The translations under genes were made by a program, and so were the position numbers. DNA of 14,432 nt. It comes from Azoarcus sp. GTDB taxonomy: Bacteria > Pseudomonadota > Gammaproteobacteria > Burkholderiales > Rhodocyclaceae. Under the pieces are notes generated by a model. The model was not told the origin of the DNA, ran no database searches, and saw only the letters and a program-made list of their open reading frames with translations. The first letter of the stretch is position 1; every line of letters begins with the position of its first letter. The stretch covers positions 1 to 14,432 of the forward strand of contig JAIRLA010000090.1 in assembly GCA_031259795.1 (NCBI GenBank), in the 5' to 3' direction. Below are positions 1 to 12,910 of the stretch, one piece after another.

Positions 1-702
1 CTTCTTGTCGCCATTCCCCAGAATCTCCGCCTCCAGTGTCGTATCCGCATGAGGATTGCCATACTTTCGTTGCGCTTCAAACAGCGCTTTCAACTCCTCT
101 CCCAACAAAACGCGGGAAAGCGCCTTGGTGTACTCGCCCCGTTTGTTGCGAAATGCTGTCAGATTATTTTGTCCAATTTCCCTGAGCAGCATTTCGGCAG
201 GACTGCGATAGCTCTTTTTTTCCATCAATTTCCGGGTTCCTGCCAGGCCCTGCTTGACCTTGCCTTCCTCGCTCTTGCTATCGGTTTCCGCTGCTTTTTC
301 CTCCGCCTTGCTGATCCAATGAAAACCGCGATGCTTGGCGATGTGGTAAATCACCCGCGCCCATTCTTCCGGTGCAAGTCGGCGATCCAGGCCTTCGACA
401 CGCAATTGCCAAAGGTTCTTTTCCTTGTCTACATAGGGGTTTTCATACGAAAAGAAGCGGGTATCGACAATCAGACCATGCCGTTTCAACACCCGCGCCA
501 GCTTCTTTAGCCGCCACTTCCGGTGATCGAGGCACCGCCGCATCAGCCTTGCCATACGCCGGGCGAGGTTCAGCGACTCCCCTTCCCTGGCGGTTTCCGC
601 TTTGTCGAAAGTGCGCACCCCCAAGTCAATGATGTGATTTTCCGCCAGCAGCGCCCAGCCCACCGAAGCGATGCCAATATCCAGACCAAGCGTATACATC
701 AT
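1..702 (-). CDS. cas9: Cas9 endonuclease, type II-C-like, N-terminal part (runs off the window)
   Basis: Partial gene: 234 codons lie in the window and the reading frame is open to its edge. Cas9 is the crRNA:tracrRNA-guided DNA nuclease of type II CRISPR-Cas. Seen: RuvC-I motif GLDIGIASVGWAL at residues 6-18 with the expected catalytic Asp at 8; an arginine/lysine-rich bridge helix at about 46-74 (LARRMARLMRR onward); REC-lobe stretches resembling Neisseria meningitidis Cas9, namely WQLRVEGLDRRL (98-109), VIYHIAKHRGF (117-127), NKRGEYTKALSR (186-197) and RKYGNPHAD (212-220). HNH, RuvC-II/III and the PAM-interacting domain would lie beyond the window. Start: ATG ATG at 702/699; GGGGGA at 711-706 is a fair ribosome site and its spacing suits the second ATG slightly better; an in-frame ATG at 714 is possible. 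A divergent tracrRNA lies upstream. A weak -10 (TATTAT, 745-740) may serve it. Base composition is visibly less GC-rich than the neighbours, suggesting transfer. IscB is unlikely given the Cas9-type REC sequence. Confidence 0.93.
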   Translation of the reverse strand, partial: MMYTLGLDIGIASVGWALLAENHIIDLGVRTFDKAETAREGESLNLARRMARLMRRCLDHRKWRLKKLARVLKRHGLIVDTRFFSYENPYVDKEKNLWQLRVEGLDRRLAPEEWARVIYHIAKHRGFHWISKAEEKAAETDSKSEEGKVKQGLAGTRKLMEKKSYRSPAEMLLREIGQNNLTAFRNKRGEYTKALSRVLLGEELKALFEAQRKYGNPHADTTLEAEILGNGDKK

Positions 703-716
703 GCGTCCCCCCATGG

Positions 717-744
717 CTGCCACAAACAGCAAATGCCGTATAAT
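717..744 (+). promoter_or_regulatory. sigma70-type promoter of the tracrRNA
   Basis: A perfect -10 hexamer TATAAT lies at 739-744. A -35-like CTGCCA (4 of 6 matches to TTGACA) lies at 717-722, with a 16-bp spacer. The predicted start, about 7 bases after the -10, falls at about 751, exactly where the anti-repeat begins. The promoter points away from cas9, and its -10 overlaps a weaker minus-strand -10 (TATTAT at 745-740) that could fire toward cas9. Confidence 0.7.
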
Positions 745-750
745 AGCGGC

Positions 751-850
751 ACTTGTAGCTTTCCGGGGTGAGAGCCGTTGCTACAATAAGGTGCCGCTTT
801 CGGGCGGCGACCGAACCCGACCCGGCACAAGCGTGTCGGGTCTTTTCTTT
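751..850 (+). ncRNA. tracrRNA of the type II CRISPR-Cas system
   Basis: A trans-activating crRNA pairs with the crRNA repeat, directs RNase III processing and loads Cas9. Seen in order: a 36-nt anti-repeat at 752-787, beginning TTGTAGC and ending GCTACAAT, with the internal GAGAGCCGTTGCTACAATAA that closely matches the Neisseria meningitidis tracrRNA (GAGAACCGTTGCTACAATAA); then AAGG; then a stem-loop GCCGC/GCGGC at 793-808 capped by TTCG; then a linker; then an intrinsic terminator at 819-842 followed by a T-rich run. A consensus -10 sits just upstream. The expected transcript is about 100 nt. It is divergent from cas9, and its end comes about 15 bases before the trpE stop codon, which approaches from the other side. 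Assignment rests on recognised similarity to II-C tracrRNAs plus the adjacent Cas9. Confidence 0.88.
819..850 (+). terminator. intrinsic terminator of the tracrRNA
   Basis: GACCCGGCAC (819-828) pairs with GTGTCGGGTC (833-842) over ten base pairs, including one G-U, around the loop AAGC. It is followed directly by TTTTCTTTTT. The T-rich run is only on the plus-strand 3' side, so it terminates the tracrRNA and not the convergent trpE. In tracrRNAs this hairpin is normally also part of the Cas9-bound structure. Confidence 0.85.
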
Positions 851-866
851 TTGTACCTTTGTATCT

Positions 867-2339
867 TCAAAGCCGCGTATCGAGGCCGTTTTCCGCCATT
901 TCCGCCGCGCGCAGCATGGCGCGGGCCTTGTTTTGCGTTTCCGCCCATTCGGCATCGGGATCGGAATCGGCGACGAGACCGGCGCCCGCCTGGACATGAA
1001 GCTGGCCGTCCTTGAGGATGGCGGTGCGCAGGGCGATGGCCAGGTCCATGTCGCCGTGAAAGCCGATGTAGCCGACCGCGCCCGCGTAGAGGCCGCGTTT
1101 GACCGGCTCCAGTTCGTCGATGATTTCCATCGCCCGTACTTTGGGGGCGCCGGAGACGGTGCCCGCGGGGAAGGCGGCGCGCAGGACATCGAAGGCGTCC
1201 AGCCCGGCGGCCAGCCGCCCTTCGACGTTGGAGACGAGGTGCATCACATGCGAATAGCGTTCGACGATGAAACGCTCGGTGACTTTCACCGTGCCGGTCG
1301 CCGCCACGCGCCCGGCGTCGTTGCGGCCCAGGTCGAGCAGTTGCAGGTGTTCGGCGCGCTCTTTTTCGTCGGCGAGGAGTTCCGCTTCCAGCGCCTTGTC
1401 TTCGGCGGCGGTCGCGCCGCGTTTGCGGGTGCCCGCGATGGGACGCACGGTGATATTGCCGTCCTGGAGCTGGACGAGAATCTCGGGTGAAGCGCCGACG
1501 ACGTGGAAATCGTCGAAATGGAAGTTGAACAGATAGGGCGAGGGATTGAGCGAGCGGATGGCGCGGTAGAGCGCGAGCGGCGGCGCGGCAAAGGGTTTGC
1601 TCATGCGCTGGGAGAGGACGGTCTGCATGACATCGCCGTCGACGATGTACTGCTTGACGCGGCGCACCGCGTCCTTGAACGCTTGTTCGCCGAAGCTCGA
1701 TACCGCCGGGGCGCTGGCCGTGCGCGTATCGCAGGGAATTCGTACCGGATCGCGCAGTTTGGCGAGGAGTTCCGCCAACCGCCGCCGTGCGCGCCGGAAC
1801 GCGCCCGGCACGTTGGGATCGGCATGGACGACCAGCGTGAGTTTGCCGGAAAGGTTGTCGACGATGGCGATTTCTTCGGAGAGCAGCAGCAGGATGTCGG
1901 GGGCGCCGAGGGGATCGGGTTTTTTCGGCGCGCCCAGGCGCGGCTCGATGTAGCGTACGGCGTCGTAGCCGAAGCAGCCGACGAGACCGCCCGCGAATTT
2001 CGGCAATCCCGCGCGCGGCGGCACTTTGATCCGCCCGATGAATTCGGCGATGAAGGCGAGCGGGTCGGCGTCGTCCCGGCGTTCGATCAGGCGGTTGCCG
2101 GTCAGCAGCAGGGCGGTGCGGTCATGGACTTCGATGCGGGTCGGCGAGGCGAGGCCGATGAAGGAATAGCGCCCGAAGCGTTCGCCGCCTTGTACGGATT
2201 CGAGCAGGTAGGTGTAAGGCTCGTCGGCGAGTTTCAGGTAAATGGTCAGGGGGGTGTCGAGGTCGGCGAAGGTTTCGAGCGTGACCGGAATGCGGTTGTA
2301 ACCCTCGGCGGCGAGGGCGTCGAACGTTTGTTCGAGCAT
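867..2339 (-). CDS. trpE: Anthranilate synthase component I
   Basis: TrpE converts chorismate to anthranilate, the first committed step of tryptophan synthesis, with ammonia supplied by a TrpG/PabA-type glutamine amidotransferase. The 490 residues match the usual family length. Seen: N-terminal LLES at residues 45-48, the conserved element of the Trp feedback site; then the chorismate-binding domain with PIAGTRKRG, LDLGRNDAGRV, SHVMHLVSNVEG, FPAGTVSGAPKVRAMEIIDELE-type core and the C-terminal QAGAGLVADSDP. Start chosen at ATG 2339, with GGAG seven bases upstream; a GTG at 2351 overlaps that GGAG and would add only four residues. No trpG, trpD or trpC follows inside the window, although in many betaproteobacteria they do. 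The gene ends just before the convergent tracrRNA terminator. It is probably controlled by the leader described separately. Confidence 0.97.
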   Translation of the reverse strand: MLEQTFDALAAEGYNRIPVTLETFADLDTPLTIYLKLADEPYTYLLESVQGGERFGRYSFIGLASPTRIEVHDRTALLLTGNRLIERRDDADPLAFIAEFIGRIKVPPRAGLPKFAGGLVGCFGYDAVRYIEPRLGAPKKPDPLGAPDILLLLSEEIAIVDNLSGKLTLVVHADPNVPGAFRRARRRLAELLAKLRDPVRIPCDTRTASAPAVSSFGEQAFKDAVRRVKQYIVDGDVMQTVLSQRMSKPFAAPPLALYRAIRSLNPSPYLFNFHFDDFHVVGASPEILVQLQDGNITVRPIAGTRKRGATAAEDKALEAELLADEKERAEHLQLLDLGRNDAGRVAATGTVKVTERFIVERYSHVMHLVSNVEGRLAAGLDAFDVLRAAFPAGTVSGAPKVRAMEIIDELEPVKRGLYAGAVGYIGFHGDMDLAIALRTAILKDGQLHVQAGAGLVADSDPDAEWAETQNKARAMLRAAEMAENGLDTRL

Positions 2340-2409
2340 GGGAGACTCCACGGAAAGAAACGGGAAAGCGGTGTTCGGACGGCTGGGCGAGGCGCGGGGC
2401 GACGCGAAA

Positions 2410-7844: not shown

Positions 7845-9026
7845 ATGCGCGTCCTGATCTGGTTCATCGCCATCTTTGGTCTCGCCGTGGGGCTGGTCAT
7901 GCTGTTCGGCCACGACTGGGGCTATGTGCAATTCATGCTTCCGGAACGGTATCGCGTGCAAATGCCGCTCAATCTGTTCGCGGCGCTGCTCGTCATTGCC
8001 TTCGCCGTCGGCTATCTGTTGACACGCCTGATCCGGCGCACGCTGGCGCTGCCCGAAACGGTCGGGCAATGGCGCGAGCGCCGGCGGCGGCAACGGGCGG
8101 ATCGCGCCCTGCGCGAAGCCGTGCTCACCCTGCACGAAGGGCGTTACGCGCAAGCGCTGAAATTCGCGGGGAAAGCATTCGCGGCCAGCGATCATCCGGG
8201 GGCGGCGGCCCTGCTGGCGGCGCGGGCGGCGCACGCCCTGCGCGACGAAACCCGCTACCGGAACTGGATCGAGCATCTCAAGAATGAAGACGGAGAAAAA
8301 GTCCAGGTCGCGCGGCTGATGACCGAAGCCGAGTTGGCCATTACCGCGCGCGACTTCGAAGATGCCGCCGAAAAACTGGAAACCCTGCGGGAAGATGGTC
8401 ATCGCCACATCGCCGCCCTGCGTCTATCGCTGCGGGTCGCCTCCGCGCTGCGGCGCTGGGAAGACGTATTGCGCCTGACCCGCCAACTGCGCAAGCACAA
8501 AGCGCTCACCGAAGCCCAGGCCCTGCCGCTGCTGCGCCGCGCCCATGTCGAATGCCTGCGCGAATGCGCCGGGAACAGCGAAGCGCTGCTGCAAGTCTGG
8601 GACGACATTCCCAACGCGGAACGCGCCGATCCCCAATTGCTGATGGAAGCCGTACCCCTGCTGGCGCGCGCCGGCAAGGGCGACGTCGCGCGGCGCACTC
8701 TCGAACGCCTGCTCGACGACGAATGGGACAGCGGCCTTGCCCGCCTCTATGGTTATTGCGGCGGAAGCGATGGAGACAGCGCCCTTGCCAAAGGCGAAAG
8801 CTGGCTGGCCCGGCATCCGCGCGACGCCGGACTGCTGTTCGCGCTTGGCCGCCTGTGCCTTGCCGCGCAACTATGGGGCAAAGCCGAAAGCTACTTTGGA
8901 GCTTCGCTCGGGCTGCACGCGGACATCGAAACACATCTGGCGCTCGCGCGCCTGTTCGACCGTCTGGAGCGCGGCGCGGATGCGCAACGCCATTACCGCG
9001 CCGCCGCGGAACTGGTCGCGGGTTGA
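7845..9026 (+). CDS. hemY: HemY family inner-membrane protein with TPR-like repeats
   Basis: A 393-residue protein, last gene of the hem operon, 11 bases after hemX. This proteobacterial HemY is unrelated to the Bacillus protoporphyrinogen oxidase of the same name. Seen: two hydrophobic helices at about 3-22 and 44-63 separated by the family-typical GHDWGYVQFMLPERYRVQMPLNLF, which marks the HemY_N domain; then an Arg-rich stretch; then a long Ala/Leu-rich helical region consistent with tetratricopeptide repeats (for example ALREAVLTLHEGRYAQALKFA and a C-terminal LFALGRLCLAAQLWGKAESYFGASL). It may scaffold heme enzymes at the membrane; this is a proposal from the family, not shown here. Start ATG 7845 has GAGG about ten bases upstream. 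Confidence 0.92.
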   Translation: MRVLIWFIAIFGLAVGLVMLFGHDWGYVQFMLPERYRVQMPLNLFAALLVIAFAVGYLLTRLIRRTLALPETVGQWRERRRRQRADRALREAVLTLHEGRYAQALKFAGKAFAASDHPGAAALLAARAAHALRDETRYRNWIEHLKNEDGEKVQVARLMTEAELAITARDFEDAAEKLETLREDGHRHIAALRLSLRVASALRRWEDVLRLTRQLRKHKALTEAQALPLLRRAHVECLRECAGNSEALLQVWDDIPNAERADPQLLMEAVPLLARAGKGDVARRTLERLLDDEWDSGLARLYGYCGGSDGDSALAKGESWLARHPRDAGLLFALGRLCLAAQLWGKAESYFGASLGLHADIETHLALARLFDRLERGADAQRHYRAAAELVAG

Positions 9027-9347
9027 TACCGGGATCAGATTTGGATCAGCGGCGCTGCGCTCCGCAAGGAACGAACTGGATTGCCACGTCGCTTCGCTCC
9101 TCGCATTGACGAGGGGGGGGGGAGACTTTCGCAATGACGAGGTAGGGGAAGGACTTTCGCAATGACGCGGCAATCCATGCGGCGGTTCAAGTCAGGCTAT
9201 CGCGCGGGCCATATGCGCCGCGCCAGACGCGCCACGGGCGGCAAGGCAAGCAGGCTGGCTCGGGCCATGGGAATCCTTTCTGGAATTGTGGCGTCGTGGT
9301 CTGGCGGTGCTGCCCGGCGTCGCCGTTTCCGGCTGTCTCCGGTTCTG
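9027..9347. other. Convergent intergenic region between hemY and lpxH
   Basis: About 320 bases where the two operons meet. It holds a cluster of dispersed-repeat fragments (9077-9188, listed separately) and, next to lpxH, short open frames of doubtful reality. No clear intrinsic terminator is visible for either operon. Confidence 0.6.
9077..9188. repeat. Cluster of dispersed repeat fragments (TGGATTGCC...GCAATGACG type)
   Basis: One unit at 9077-9113 reads TGGATTGCC, then a CG-rich core, then CTCGCATTGACGAG. It is followed by two direct copies of GACTTTCGCAATGACG (9124-9139 and 9152-9167, 28 bases apart) and an inverted partner GGCAATCCATGCGGCGGTTC (9169-9188), which recurs exactly at 14194-14213. 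The general pattern (CGTCATTGCGAGGAGC...GGCAATCCA) is a known type of intergenic interspersed repeat in many bacterial genomes; family naming is uncertain. Confidence 0.75.
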
Positions 9348-9351
9348 TCAT
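9187..9351 (-). CDS. Doubtful small open frame coupled to lpxH
   Basis: A 54-codon frame begins with an ATG that overlaps the lpxH stop (ATGA, 9351-9348) and ends inside the repeat cluster. I recognise no family in it. A second frame inside it, ATG 9268 to the stop at 9197, begins MARASLLALPPVARLARRIW and has a better ribosome site (AAAGGA, five bases upstream). Either could be a small gene or the remnant of a gene cut short where the repeats arrived. The composition is also compatible with chance. Confidence 0.2.
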   Translation of the reverse strand: MTEPETAGNGDAGQHRQTTTPQFQKGFPWPEPACLPCRPWRVWRGAYGPRDSLT

Positions 9352-10124
9352 CCCGCCCCCGTTTTGAATTCCACGCCATCGCAGGCCAGCCAGAGCGGGC
9401 GCTCGTCCCAGTCGGCGAGTACGATGCGTTCGCAGCAATGGCCGTCGACGTGGTGCGTGTGGCGCGCCGGGCGGTGGGTGTGGCCGTGGATGAGCGTGGG
9501 GTAGCCGTGGGCGCGCAGCAGGGCGGCGACCGCGTCGGCATTGACGTCCATGATTTCCGCTGCTTTGCCGCTCTTGGCGATTTCGCTTTGGGCGCGCGCA
9601 TTCTTGATGTGGTCGTGGCGCGCGGCGAGCGGTTGGGCGAGGAATTCGGCTTGCCAGTCTGGATCGCGCACTTGGCGGCGAAAGCTCTGGTAGGCATGGT
9701 CGTCGATGCAGAGCGCATCGCCGTGGGACAGCAGCAATGCACATGCGCCAAGGCGGATCGGCGCCGGGTCGGGGAGAAGGCGCGCTCCGGCGGCGCGCGC
9801 GAAGCCTTCCCCGGCAAGCAGGTCGCGGTTGCCGGTCATGAAGAAAAGGGAAACCCCTCCGGCGGCGACGGCCCGCAAGGCCGCGCAGACGCGCTGGTTG
9901 AAGGGGGTGTCGATGTCATCGTCGCCAGCCCAGTATTCGAACAGGTCGCCGAGGATGAAAAGGCTGCCGGCCTGGCGCGCCGGGCCGGAGAGAAAGTCGA
10001 AAAAGGCTGCGGCGGTGCGCGGGCGTCCGGCGGTCAGGTGCAGGTCGGAGATGAACAACGCCGGCAGCCGTTCCGGAGGAAGGACTGCCGGCGCGGCGCC
10101 GCCAGCGGGGACGAATTCAGACAA
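9348..10124 (-). CDS. lpxH: UDP-2,3-diacylglucosamine diphosphatase
   Basis: LpxH cleaves UDP-2,3-diacylglucosamine to lipid X and UMP, the fourth step of lipid A synthesis, at the cytoplasmic face of the inner membrane. The 258 residues fit. All metallophosphoesterase metal-binding motifs are present: SDLHL (26-30), [11 protein letters not shown] (59-69), GNRD (98-101), SHGDALC (133-139) and GHTHRP (214-219). The start is unusual: the only plausible one is TTG at 10124, overlapping the last codons of ppiB by 8 bases, so translation is probably coupled to ppiB; no earlier ATG or GTG exists in frame before a stop. The N-terminus has about 20 residues before the SDLHL strand, somewhat more than in Escherichia coli LpxH. 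It is the last recognised gene of the ppiA-ppiB-lpxH operon. Confidence 0.95.
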
Positions 10125-10611
10125 CTTCAGCGCGCTCGATGATGATGTCTTCCTTGGGAACGTCCTGGTGGAAGCCCTTGTTGCCGGTGTCGACGCGGCG
10201 GATTTTATCGATCACCTCCAGCCCGTCGGTGACGTGGCCGAACACGCAGTAACCCCAGCCTTGCGGTTCGGGAGCGCGAAAGTCGAGAAAGGCGTTGTCG
10301 GTCACGTTGATGAAAAACTGCGCGGTGGCCGAGTGCGGGTCGTTGGCGCGGGCCATGGCGATGGAGCCGCGCGTGTTCAGGAGGCCATTGCCGGCTTCGT
10401 TCTTGATCGGCTCCCGGGTGGGTTTCTGCTTCATCCCCGGCTCGAAACCGCCGCCCTGGATCATGAAGTTGTCGATCACCCGATGGAACACGGTGTTGTC
10501 GTAATGACCGGCGGCGACGTAGGCAAGGAAATTCTCGACCGTGAGCGGGGCCTTGTCCGCATCGAGTTCGAGGGTGATGGTTCCGAGGCTGGTGTGCAGT
10601 TTGACTGGCAT
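10117..10611 (-). CDS. ppiB: Cytoplasmic peptidyl-prolyl cis-trans isomerase B (cyclophilin)
   Basis: A 164-residue cyclophilin without a signal peptide, accelerating proline isomerisation in the cytoplasm. Seen: [17 protein letters not shown] opening, [15 protein letters not shown] (the catalytic Arg region), [19 protein letters not shown], and [20 protein letters not shown], all hallmarks of the bacterial cyclophilin family. It lies 18 bases after ppiA and overlaps lpxH by 8 bases. Its DNA shares a nearly identical 47-base stretch with ppiA (see findings). The ATG start at 10611 begins the conserved first strand, so the start is secure. Confidence 0.95.
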
Positions 10612-10629
10612 ATATTGCTCCGCGCGCGG

Positions 10630-11250
10630 TTACTTGGCTTTGGTGGTTTTGGCCGCGGCGGGGGCGGGAGCGGCGTCCGCGGGGGCTGTGTCGATGATCC
10701 GGGCGGATTCGATCACCACCGCCTCGATGGGCACATCGCCAAACGGTCCCACGGGCCGGGTCCTGCGTTTGGCGATTTTGTCGACTACGTCCATGCCCTT
10801 GATGACCTTGCCGAACACGGCATAGCCCCAGCCTTGCGGTTCGGGAGCGCGGAAGTCGAGAAAGGCGTTGTCCTTGAGGTTGATGAAGAACTGCGAAGTC
10901 GCGGAATGCGGCGCGTTGGTACGGGCCATTGCCACTGTGCCGCGCACGTTCTTGAGGCCGTTCCCGGCTTCGTTCTCGACCGGCGCGCGGGTGGTTTTTT
11001 GTTGCAGCGCCTTGTCGTAACCACCGCCCTGGATCATGAAATCGTCGATGACGCGATGAAAGACCGTATTGTCGTAGTGACCATCCTTTACGTACTGGAT
11101 GAAGTTGGCGGTCGATTTGGGCGCCTGCCCGGCATCGAGTTCGAGCACAATATCGCCCGCATTGGTCTTGATTTCCACTTGCGGATTGGCGGCATGGGCG
11201 GCGAGGGCGCAAAGGCCGAAGGTCAGGGAAGCAATGAGATGGCGGATCAT
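10630..11250 (-). CDS. ppiA: Periplasmic peptidyl-prolyl cis-trans isomerase A (cyclophilin)
   Basis: A 206-residue cyclophilin with a clear Sec signal peptide: MIRHLIASL, hydrophobic core FGLCALAA, predicted cleavage after AHA at residue 20. The mature part carries FHRVIDDFMIQGGGY, GTVAMARTN, SATSQFFINL and [20 protein letters not shown]. It is therefore a periplasmic folding helper. The C-terminus adds an Ala/Pro/Lys-rich tail after residue 190 (ADAAPAPAAAKTTKAK). Start chosen at ATG 11250, which has GGAG six bases upstream and starts the signal peptide; the frame stays open further upstream but that part contains the promoter region. First gene of the ppiA-ppiB-lpxH operon. Confidence 0.95.
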   Translation of the reverse strand: MIRHLIASLTFGLCALAAHAANPQVEIKTNAGDIVLELDAGQAPKSTANFIQYVKDGHYDNTVFHRVIDDFMIQGGGYDKALQQKTTRAPVENEAGNGLKNVRGTVAMARTNAPHSATSQFFINLKDNAFLDFRAPEPQGWGYAVFGKVIKGMDVVDKIAKRRTRPVGPFGDVPIEAVVIESARIIDTAPADAAPAPAAAKTTKAK

Positions 11251-11400
11251 GCGTACTCCAGGAAATGGGATGAAAAGAATGACAGAAAGGACGGGGAAAC
11301 CGCTTTGCGTCCGGGAAGAATACGCAGGAACCGGCCAAAAGCGCGTGTTACACTGCCAAGTCTTCCGGAGCAATCCCGTTTTCTATCGGTTGGCGCGCAA

Positions 11401-11494: not shown

Positions 11495-12910
11495 ATGCTT
11501 ACAATCTATAACACCCTGAGCCGCAACAAGGAAGTTTTCCATCCCATCGAACCCGGCCACGTCAGGATGTACGTGTGCGGCATGACCGTATACGACTATT
11601 GCCATCTCGGGCACGCGCGGGTGATGGTGGTGTTCGACATGGTGGCGCGCTGGCTGCGGGCCTGTGGTTTTACGGTGCGTTATGTACGCAATATCACCGA
11701 TGTCGACGACAAGATCATCCGCCGCGCACGGGAAAACGGCGAATCGATCCATGCGCTCACGGAGCGTTTCATCGCCGCGATGCACGAGGACGCCGACGCT
11801 CTCGGGGTCTTGCGCCCGGATTCCGAGCCGAAAGCAACGGAATATATCGCTCACATGCAGGCGCTCATTGCGCAACTCATGGAAAAGGGGCTTGCCTATG
11901 TCGCCGCCAACGGCGATGTATGTTATTCGGTGCGGAGTTTTCCCGATTATGGCCTGCTGTCGGGCAAATCAATAGACGAACTGCGGGCCGGCGAGCGGGT
12001 GGGCGTCGTCGACGACAAGGATGATCCGCTCGATTTCGTGCTCTGGAAACAGGCCAAGGCCGACGAACCCGGCGAGGCGAAGTGGGATTCTCCCTGGGGG
12101 CGCGGGCGGCCGGGCTGGCACATCGAATGCTCGGCGATGAGTTCCGCGCTGCTCGGCGCGCACTTCGACATCCACGGCGGCGGCCAGGACCTCCAGTTTC
12201 CACATCACGAAAACGAGATCGCCCAGTCCGAAGGGGCGCACGCCCGCCGCTTCGTGAATTACTGGATGCATAACGGCTTCGTGCGCGTCGACAACGAAAA
12301 GATGGCGAAATCCTTGGGCAATTTCACGACGATCCGCGACGTGCTCGCCAGATACGATGCCGAAGTGGTGCGCTTCTTCATCCTGCGCGCGCACTACCGC
12401 AGTCCGCTCAATTATTCCGACGCGCACCTCGACGACGCCCGCCAGGCGCTCGCCCGTCTGTACAACGCCGTGAAGACCGTGCCGGTCGCCGAAACGCCGC
12501 CGGTCGATTGGACGACGCCCTGGGGGGAACGTTTTCACGCGGCGATGGACGAAGACTTCAACACTGTCGAGGCGCTGGCGGCGCTCTTCGATCTGGCCAA
12601 CGAAGCCAACCGCGCCAGTTCCGCCGCGCTCGCCGGACAGGTTCGCGCCTTGGCCGGGGCGCTGGGCCTGCTCGGACGCGAGACGAATGATTTTTTGCAG
12701 GCTGTTGTCGGAAGCGGGGACGCAGAGCTGGAAGCCTCTGCGATCGAAGCGCGCATCGCCGCCCGTCTGGCGGCCAGGAAAGCGCGCGATTTCGCCGAGG
12801 CGGACAGATTGCGCGAGGAGCTGCGATCCGCCGGCATCGAACTGGAAGACGGTCCGCAGGGAACGAGCTGGCGGCGCGCCCGGAGCGCCCCGGCATTGAG
12901 TGACAGGTGA
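11495..12910 (+). CDS. cysS: Cysteinyl-tRNA synthetase
   Basis: CysS attaches cysteine to tRNA-Cys in the cytoplasm. The 471-residue length is normal for a class I CysRS. Seen: HIGH motif as HLGH at 37-40, zinc ligands Cys 28, Cys 212, His 237 and Glu 241 (in [17 protein letters not shown] and [11 protein letters not shown]), the nucleotide-binding signature as KMAKS at 269-273 (Ala instead of the commoner Ser), and the C-terminal helical anticodon-binding region with [29 protein letters not shown]. Start ATG 11495 directly precedes the conserved [14 protein letters not shown] opening. It is divergent from ppiA. The last residues (RSAPALSDR) are outside the conserved core. Confidence 0.97.

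Follow-up and report, generated by a model that had tools for sequence, protein, structure and literature searches.

The stretch of DNA analysed here (the window) is a whole contig of Azoarcus sp. (JAIRLA010000090.1, contig C29 of its assembly; 14,432 bases), and positions 717-852 on its forward strand were found to contain what is almost certainly a self-contained gene for a trans-activating CRISPR RNA (tracrRNA) of a type II clustered regularly interspaced short palindromic repeats (CRISPR)-Cas9 locus, most likely of subtype II-C. The parts of the gene, their conservation and covariation among related loci, and the pairing of its anti-repeat with the CRISPR repeat of a relative were computed. 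A preliminary description, made from the sequence alone, had claimed a module of about 100 nucleotides (nt) complete in itself, and all of its named parts were found to be present and to be conserved across the relatives.

The promoter was found to contain the perfect TATAAT box of the preliminary description, preceded by a -35-like hexamer at a spacer of 16 bases, and both boxes together contained 10/12 matches. The claim that the gene has its own promoter is carried by this -10 box and by the finding that 717-744 was the sole promoter-like site between positions 600 and 1000 (mean of 0.2 sites in shuffled sequence), and is weakened by the -35 box. The predicted start at about position 751 abuts the anti-repeat, the predicted pairing of which begins at position 753 and not at 752 as first proposed. 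The anti-repeat is followed by a helix of 6+3 pairs with a 1-nt bulge (790-812), in which a U-G pair closes the UUCG loop, and then by the terminator hairpin (819-842), which contained 10 pairs including one G-U, the loop AAGC and the tail TTTTCTTTTT; the capped stem and the terminator with its T run were both present as described. Five terminator-like sites were found in 600-1000 (0.5 in shuffles), and the hairpin at 819-842 contained the most pairs. The fold of 751-851 was predicted at -45.7 kcal/mol (z -3.45), and 1/200 shuffles was equally stable. In the predicted fold of the tracrRNA alone the two ends of the anti-repeat (753-759 and 780-786) pair with each other, because the CRISPR repeat is a partial palindrome, and this self-hairpin gives way in the co-fold with the repeat of the nearest relative.

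The Cas9 fragment of the window was searched against one genome per species, which yielded 78 loci; by record title these were mostly betaproteobacterial, with a few from elsewhere (judged by eye). The cultured Azonexus hydrophilus, Dechloromonas denitrificans and D. agitata are among the relatives that share the layout, and the nearest relative (L033) is a metagenome-assembled genome (MAG) of Azoarcus sp. The tracrRNA core was found on the strand opposite cas9 in 75/78 loci, and the three loci without it were either cut there by a contig end (L077 and L108) or read N (L079). The distance between the core and the beginning of the cas9 match was 48-89 nt in 71/75 loci and greater in L107 (146 nt), L098 (152 nt), L050 (196 nt) and L038 (881 nt); in L098 the cas9 frame extends nearer to the core than the cas9 match does. 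A terminator hairpin with a T-rich tail was detected in 73/75 relatives, and it was undetected in L074 and L101, whose loops exceed the loop limit of the search.

The promoter was counted in 76 loci (the 75 relatives and the window). A -10 hexamer with at least 5/6 matches was present in 70/76 loci, whereas 200 shuffles run with the same search gave a mean of 7.4 and a maximum of 15. Because the search scores A2 and T6 favourably and keeps the highest-scoring hexamer within 20 nt, the invariance of these two nucleotides is partly built in. The distance from the -10 box to the core was 22-29 nt in 75/76 loci. This near-constant distance argues against a long-form tracrRNA acting as a natural single guide that represses the cas9 promoter, as in the type II-A system of Streptococcus pyogenes; the divergent orientation and the short distance to cas9 speak for such a form, whereas the start is predicted at the anti-repeat with no 5′ guide extension (a second promoter upstream was not searched for separately), and we consider the long form very improbable. 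On the tracrRNA strand, 53/76 loci had their best-scoring -10 box where it was expected (22-26 nt ahead of the core), and 22/76 had it at an internal TACAAT within the 3′ portion of the anti-repeat. A second transcription start may lie at this TACAAT; the box was given no interpretation because the pairing with the repeat fixes it.

A covariance model (R1) was built from an alignment (A1) of 27/74 distinct relatives, which were picked for a similar 3′ part and included L033 and not the window; the structure used in the covariation test on this alignment was assigned by hand. A search of the window with this model gave a match at 751-850 on the forward strand (102.4 bits, E-value 2.2e-21), the sole match in 14.4 kb up to an E-value of 10. 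The hairpins of the alignment were found to contain 97.9% paired cells and 10/17 pairs changed on both sides, values reached by 0/500 shuffles on either measure, although the shuffles take no account of shared ancestry. Both-side changes were present in 4/9 pairs of the UUCG stem and in 6/8 pairs of the terminator hairpin, and the pairing fell to at most 47.7% when the partner was slid by 1-3 columns. No Rfam family reached its gathering score in the window. At a lax threshold six Rfam matches were listed, the best with an E-value of 0.92 and all below the gathering score, which is what an unrelated small RNA might give; such an RNA, or a terminator alone that belongs to an adjacent gene, would have to account for the covariance-model match and for the covariation of repeat and anti-repeat described below, and the neighbouring trpE sits on the other strand, so that either is extremely improbable.

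The pairing was examined by proxy, with the repeat of L033 standing in for that of the source organism. The L033 repeat is a single copy at a contig end (12675-12713 with flank; 36 nt as CRISPR RNA, crRNA). Its predicted duplex with 753-787 contains 31 pairs and an internal bulge and reaches -55.3 kcal/mol, whereas 500 shuffled repeats gave a mean of -17.2 and a lowest value of -31.1 kcal/mol against the same anti-repeat. The co-folding proposed in the preliminary description is answered in this way by a relative's repeat only. The array repeats of related loci were also compared with their own anti-repeats in the 60 loci that contained both an array repeat and a tracrRNA (18/78 were left out, the core or the repeat lying outside the sequence covered for the locus). 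At 11 positions beside the core, an average of 10.37/11 were pairable with G-U allowed, against 7.71 (standard deviation 0.28) for shuffled partners, and 0/2000 partner shuffles, which likewise take no account of shared ancestry, were as high; the 32 distinct repeat and anti-repeat combinations gave 10.28 against 7.51, with 0/2000 as high. The repeats of related arrays pair and co-vary with their anti-repeats. In L036, L039 and L046 the last six bases of the array repeats, read on the crRNA strand, were a perfect TATAAT, as would be expected if every repeat provided a promoter to the spacer that follows it.

Of 300 genomes surveyed in the source order, the source genome included, 36 matched the Cas9 fragment and 20 the tracrRNA model; the filters were stricter here and may have missed weak matches. 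Of the model matches, 18/20 adjoined a Cas9 match on the opposite strand (coordinate comparison, source included). The tracrRNA match of genome G173 ends 19 bases from a contig end, and the only Cas9 match of that genome lies elsewhere with 21.6 bits, below the cut-off. Genome G162 was found to contain an orphan tracrRNA-like stretch (L122, 1501-1598) near a recA-like open reading frame (ORF) (by eye); no Cas9 match was found in that genome and no -10 box was evident at the stretch (by eye), which looks like a relic.

Several points weigh against a working tracrRNA gene in the window. The -35 box of its promoter is weak. The best unrelated 36-mer of the window (taken in 6-base steps) reached -40.4 kcal/mol with the anti-repeat, so that duplex energy alone is not unique, yet this is clearly weaker than the -55.3 kcal/mol of the L033 repeat. 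One of five covariation measures, the further pair types, was reached by 26/500 shuffles, and a tracrRNA-like relic without a Cas9 match was present in one surveyed genome (G162). The array of the source organism, its cas1 and the rest of its cas9 were not found in the assembly (2.4 Mb, 308 contigs, rated 78% complete), and the locus may be degraded. A CRISPR repeat-like pattern search of the assembly gave no match, no array was among the 20 repeat families listed of at least 60, and a partial complement of the anti-repeat, searched in the assembly with up to 3 mismatches, matched only the tracrRNA gene itself.

The tracrRNA gene could then be intact in sequence within a decayed, non-functional locus whose array and cas genes are lost or broken. 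The missing parts would fit this, as would the RNA of G162 and a Cas9 stretch with three TGA and one TAG beside the tracrRNA of genome G126. The cas9 frame of the window, however, runs without a stop through its 234 codons as far as the contig edge and is 90% identical over 234 amino acids (aa) to the start of the open 1126-aa homologue in L033, and the promoter and hairpins of the tracrRNA gene are intact. Since the assembly is 78% complete and lies in 308 contigs, loss by assembly is a simpler reading than decay, which we regard as unlikely. The gene was described as divergent from cas9, and it does lie on the forward strand and close to cas9, with its predicted start at about 751 and the cas9 start at 702 on the reverse strand.

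The locus of L033 was found to contain trpE, the tracrRNA on the other strand, cas9, cas1, cas2 and the repeat, in this order, with no room for another gene between cas2 and the repeat (Table 1). A II-C locus would contain cas9, cas1 and cas2 alone, with neither csn2 nor cas4, in the order cas9-cas1-cas2-array; in the window the contig edge hides this part of the locus. The trpE neighbour is common to the window and L033, which suggests an orthologous locus; in the window, 14 bases separate the trpE stop codon from the T run of the tracrRNA. The array starts about 4.6 kb past the cas9 start in most array-holding loci (by eye), with L065 as an exception. Both the Cas9 fragment of the window and the Cas9 of L033 matched general Cas9 models, and the full-length L033 protein matched Cas9 chains of the PDB over nearly its whole length, with 6jdq, which we take to be Nme1Cas9, as the top match. 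Elsewhere in the window, two adjacent similar ORFs (10117-10611 and 10630-11373, reverse strand) share a 300-nt direct repeat at 79% and resemble a tandem peptidyl-prolyl isomerase pair (by eye).

Table 1. Features of the window, of the nearest related locus (L033) and of four viral contigs.
Feature	Position	Strand	Remarks
Window: -35-like hexamer CTGCCA of the tracrRNA promoter	717-722	+	Weak, 4/6 matches
Window: -10 box TATAAT	739-744	+	Perfect; read from the sequence and promoter scan
Window: tracrRNA gene, predicted	751-852	+	Start about 751, end within T run 843-852; covariance-model match 751-850
Window: anti-repeat	753-787	+	31 predicted pairs with the L033 CRISPR repeat
Window: UUCG-capped stem, 3′ of the anti-repeat	790-812	+	Fold; covariation in alignment A1
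Window: intrinsic terminator hairpin, 10 bp	819-842	+	Followed by T run 843-852; covariation in alignment A1
Window: cas9, 5′ part, 234 codons	702->1	-	Cut by contig edge; TIGR01865, 195.8 bits (cut-off 100)
Window: GGGGGGACGC, possible cas9 ribosome-binding site	703-712	-	Weak; before the start at 702; best Shine-Dalgarno-like match 4/6
Window: trpE	867-2351	-	TIGR00564, 543.7 bits
L033: cas9	8001-11381		1126 aa, open
L033: cas1			Type II model TIGR03639, 271 bits
L033: cas2	12282-12614		TIGR01573
L132: isolated repeat	728-752	-	
L133: isolated repeat	886-910	+	
L134: isolated repeats	113-135 and 182-204	-	
L135: isolated repeat	912-934	-	

The start codons in the cas9 frame were counted by a fixed rule in the 76 loci. 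An ATG or GTG in this frame was located 11-14 nt from the tracrRNA -10 box in 47/76 loci, and the distance was exactly 12 nt in 34/47; L082, L088 and L103 are examples of this packed layout. The window is not among the 47 and is looser, its -10 box lying 36 nt from the cas9 start at 702 and 24 nt from an alternative in-frame ATG at 714. A longer distance from the -10 box to the cas9 start was also seen in L038, L050 and L107 (MAG loci, isolates Cf509), at 855, 177 and 120 nt, respectively. In 28/47 packed loci the tracrRNA -35 box (at least 4/6 matches at 16-18 nt) was found inside the first cas9 codons, whereas it was weaker in 19/47, and 300 shuffles gave a mean of 4.7 and a maximum of 11. 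The best Shine-Dalgarno-like match of cas9 in the packed loci was found at or beside the tracrRNA -10 box, within the tracrRNA promoter.

With the ribosome-binding site of cas9 in the spacer between the tracrRNA -35 and -10 boxes, a cas9 transcript that carries this site would start at or beyond the tracrRNA promoter, and RNA polymerase could then not initiate both genes simultaneously. The interlocked starts might therefore act as a dosage switch that makes the output of cas9 and of tracrRNA mutually exclusive and balanced, a proposal that we hold to be rather doubtful. A cas9 promoter was not recognisable, the best scores on the cas9 strand having a mean of 6.54 against 6.44 in shuffled sequence (one shuffle per locus), which leaves room for the switch. 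If cas9 were transcribed from within or beyond the tracrRNA gene, its 5′ leader would be antisense to the tracrRNA. The packed layout of promoter and start codon in many relatives makes a simple regulatory question testable.

Other origins of the cas9 transcript were considered and rejected. The anti-repeat as a degenerate repeat whose -10 box drives cas9 was not supported, the last T of TACAAT being kept in 13/60 loci (by eye), and the equality of the cas9-strand promoter scores with those of shuffled sequence likewise counts against an anti-repeat-borne promoter. Co-transcription from an upstream gene is not the rule, since the longest ORF within 1.5 kb upstream shared the cas9 strand in 36 loci, lay on the opposite strand in 32 and was absent in 1; trpE is oriented towards cas9 in both the window and L033. 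No such overlap of tracrRNA and cas9 was described in the literature matches listed, as judged by title and the start of the abstract. A paper on the Neisseria small CRISPR-Cas-associated RNA (scaRNA) has a figure of the scaRNA and cas9 promoter regions (PMC13431127).

The repeat patterns also matched four viral contigs, of which L132, L133 and L135 contained one copy each and L134 contained two copies 69 nt apart. Each of these repeats ends in TACAAT or TATAAT, followed by the presence of a start codon soon after in L132-L134 (by eye). In this they are like RNA anti-CRISPRs, which consist of solitary repeat units (Racrs; PMC10651486); the main text of that paper does not contain the term 'II-C' and has 'type II' a single time, in an unrelated reference. 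The repeats of L132 and L133 were predicted to pair with the anti-repeat of the window at -52.0 and -45.3 kcal/mol, respectively. The tracrRNA core was not found in L132 or L133, two tracrRNA-core patterns gave no match in viral contigs, and a search for tracrRNA-like decoys on mobile elements gave no blastn match in phage or plasmid records. The isolated viral repeats are candidate decoys of the Racr kind, or candidate promoters used by the phages.

As is established for type II systems, pairing of the tracrRNA with the crRNA repeat gives a duplex that RNase III cleaves, and the two RNAs are bound by Cas9 along with the 3′ hairpins. In the source organism a transcript of roughly 100 nt would run from a sigma-70-type promoter, beginning with the first anti-repeat base, to the intrinsic terminator; the anti-repeat would pair with the repeat part of the crRNAs, RNase III would presumably cut the duplex, Cas9 would take up the cut duplex together with the 3′ hairpins, and the guide complex would cut matching DNA. 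For a Cas9 branch that is mostly betaproteobacterial by record title, the analysis provides a covariance model and a tracrRNA with clear limits, and the tracrRNA together with the relative's repeat forms the dual guide needed for testing such Cas9 proteins. No paper joining Cas9, tracrRNA and Dechloromonas was found in a literature search that most subscription papers lie outside, and the branch may therefore be undescribed.

The tracrRNA of Nme1Cas9 (Neisseria meningitidis, subtype II-C) contains a bulged anti-repeat, a 3′ part of the GTTGCTACAATAAGG type, a stem and a terminator, in which it is like the gene in the window; the Neisseria tracrRNA has another place in its locus, whereas the gene of the window stands directly upstream of cas9 and in divergent orientation. 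The anatomy of the gene is already known in kind from the EH CRISPR-Cas9 system, a type II-C system from a metagenome in which a tracrRNA gene of about 100 bp with its own promoter and terminator is reported upstream of cas9 (PMC10281378). The likeness extends to the order cas9-cas1-cas2-array, the 36-bp repeats and an array at a contig end, whereas the closest homologues of EHCas9 are reported there as alphaproteobacterial and the relatives found here are mostly betaproteobacterial. In Campylobacter jejuni, a minimal type II system was described by differential RNA sequencing as dependent on RNase III and tracrRNA, with a promoter within each repeat (PMC3656092). As in the type II-A locus of S. 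pyogenes with its tracr-L and tracr-S forms, as described in PMC11417352, the tracrRNA gene adjoins the cas genes; unlike that locus, a single short form is predicted here, with no upstream guide segment.
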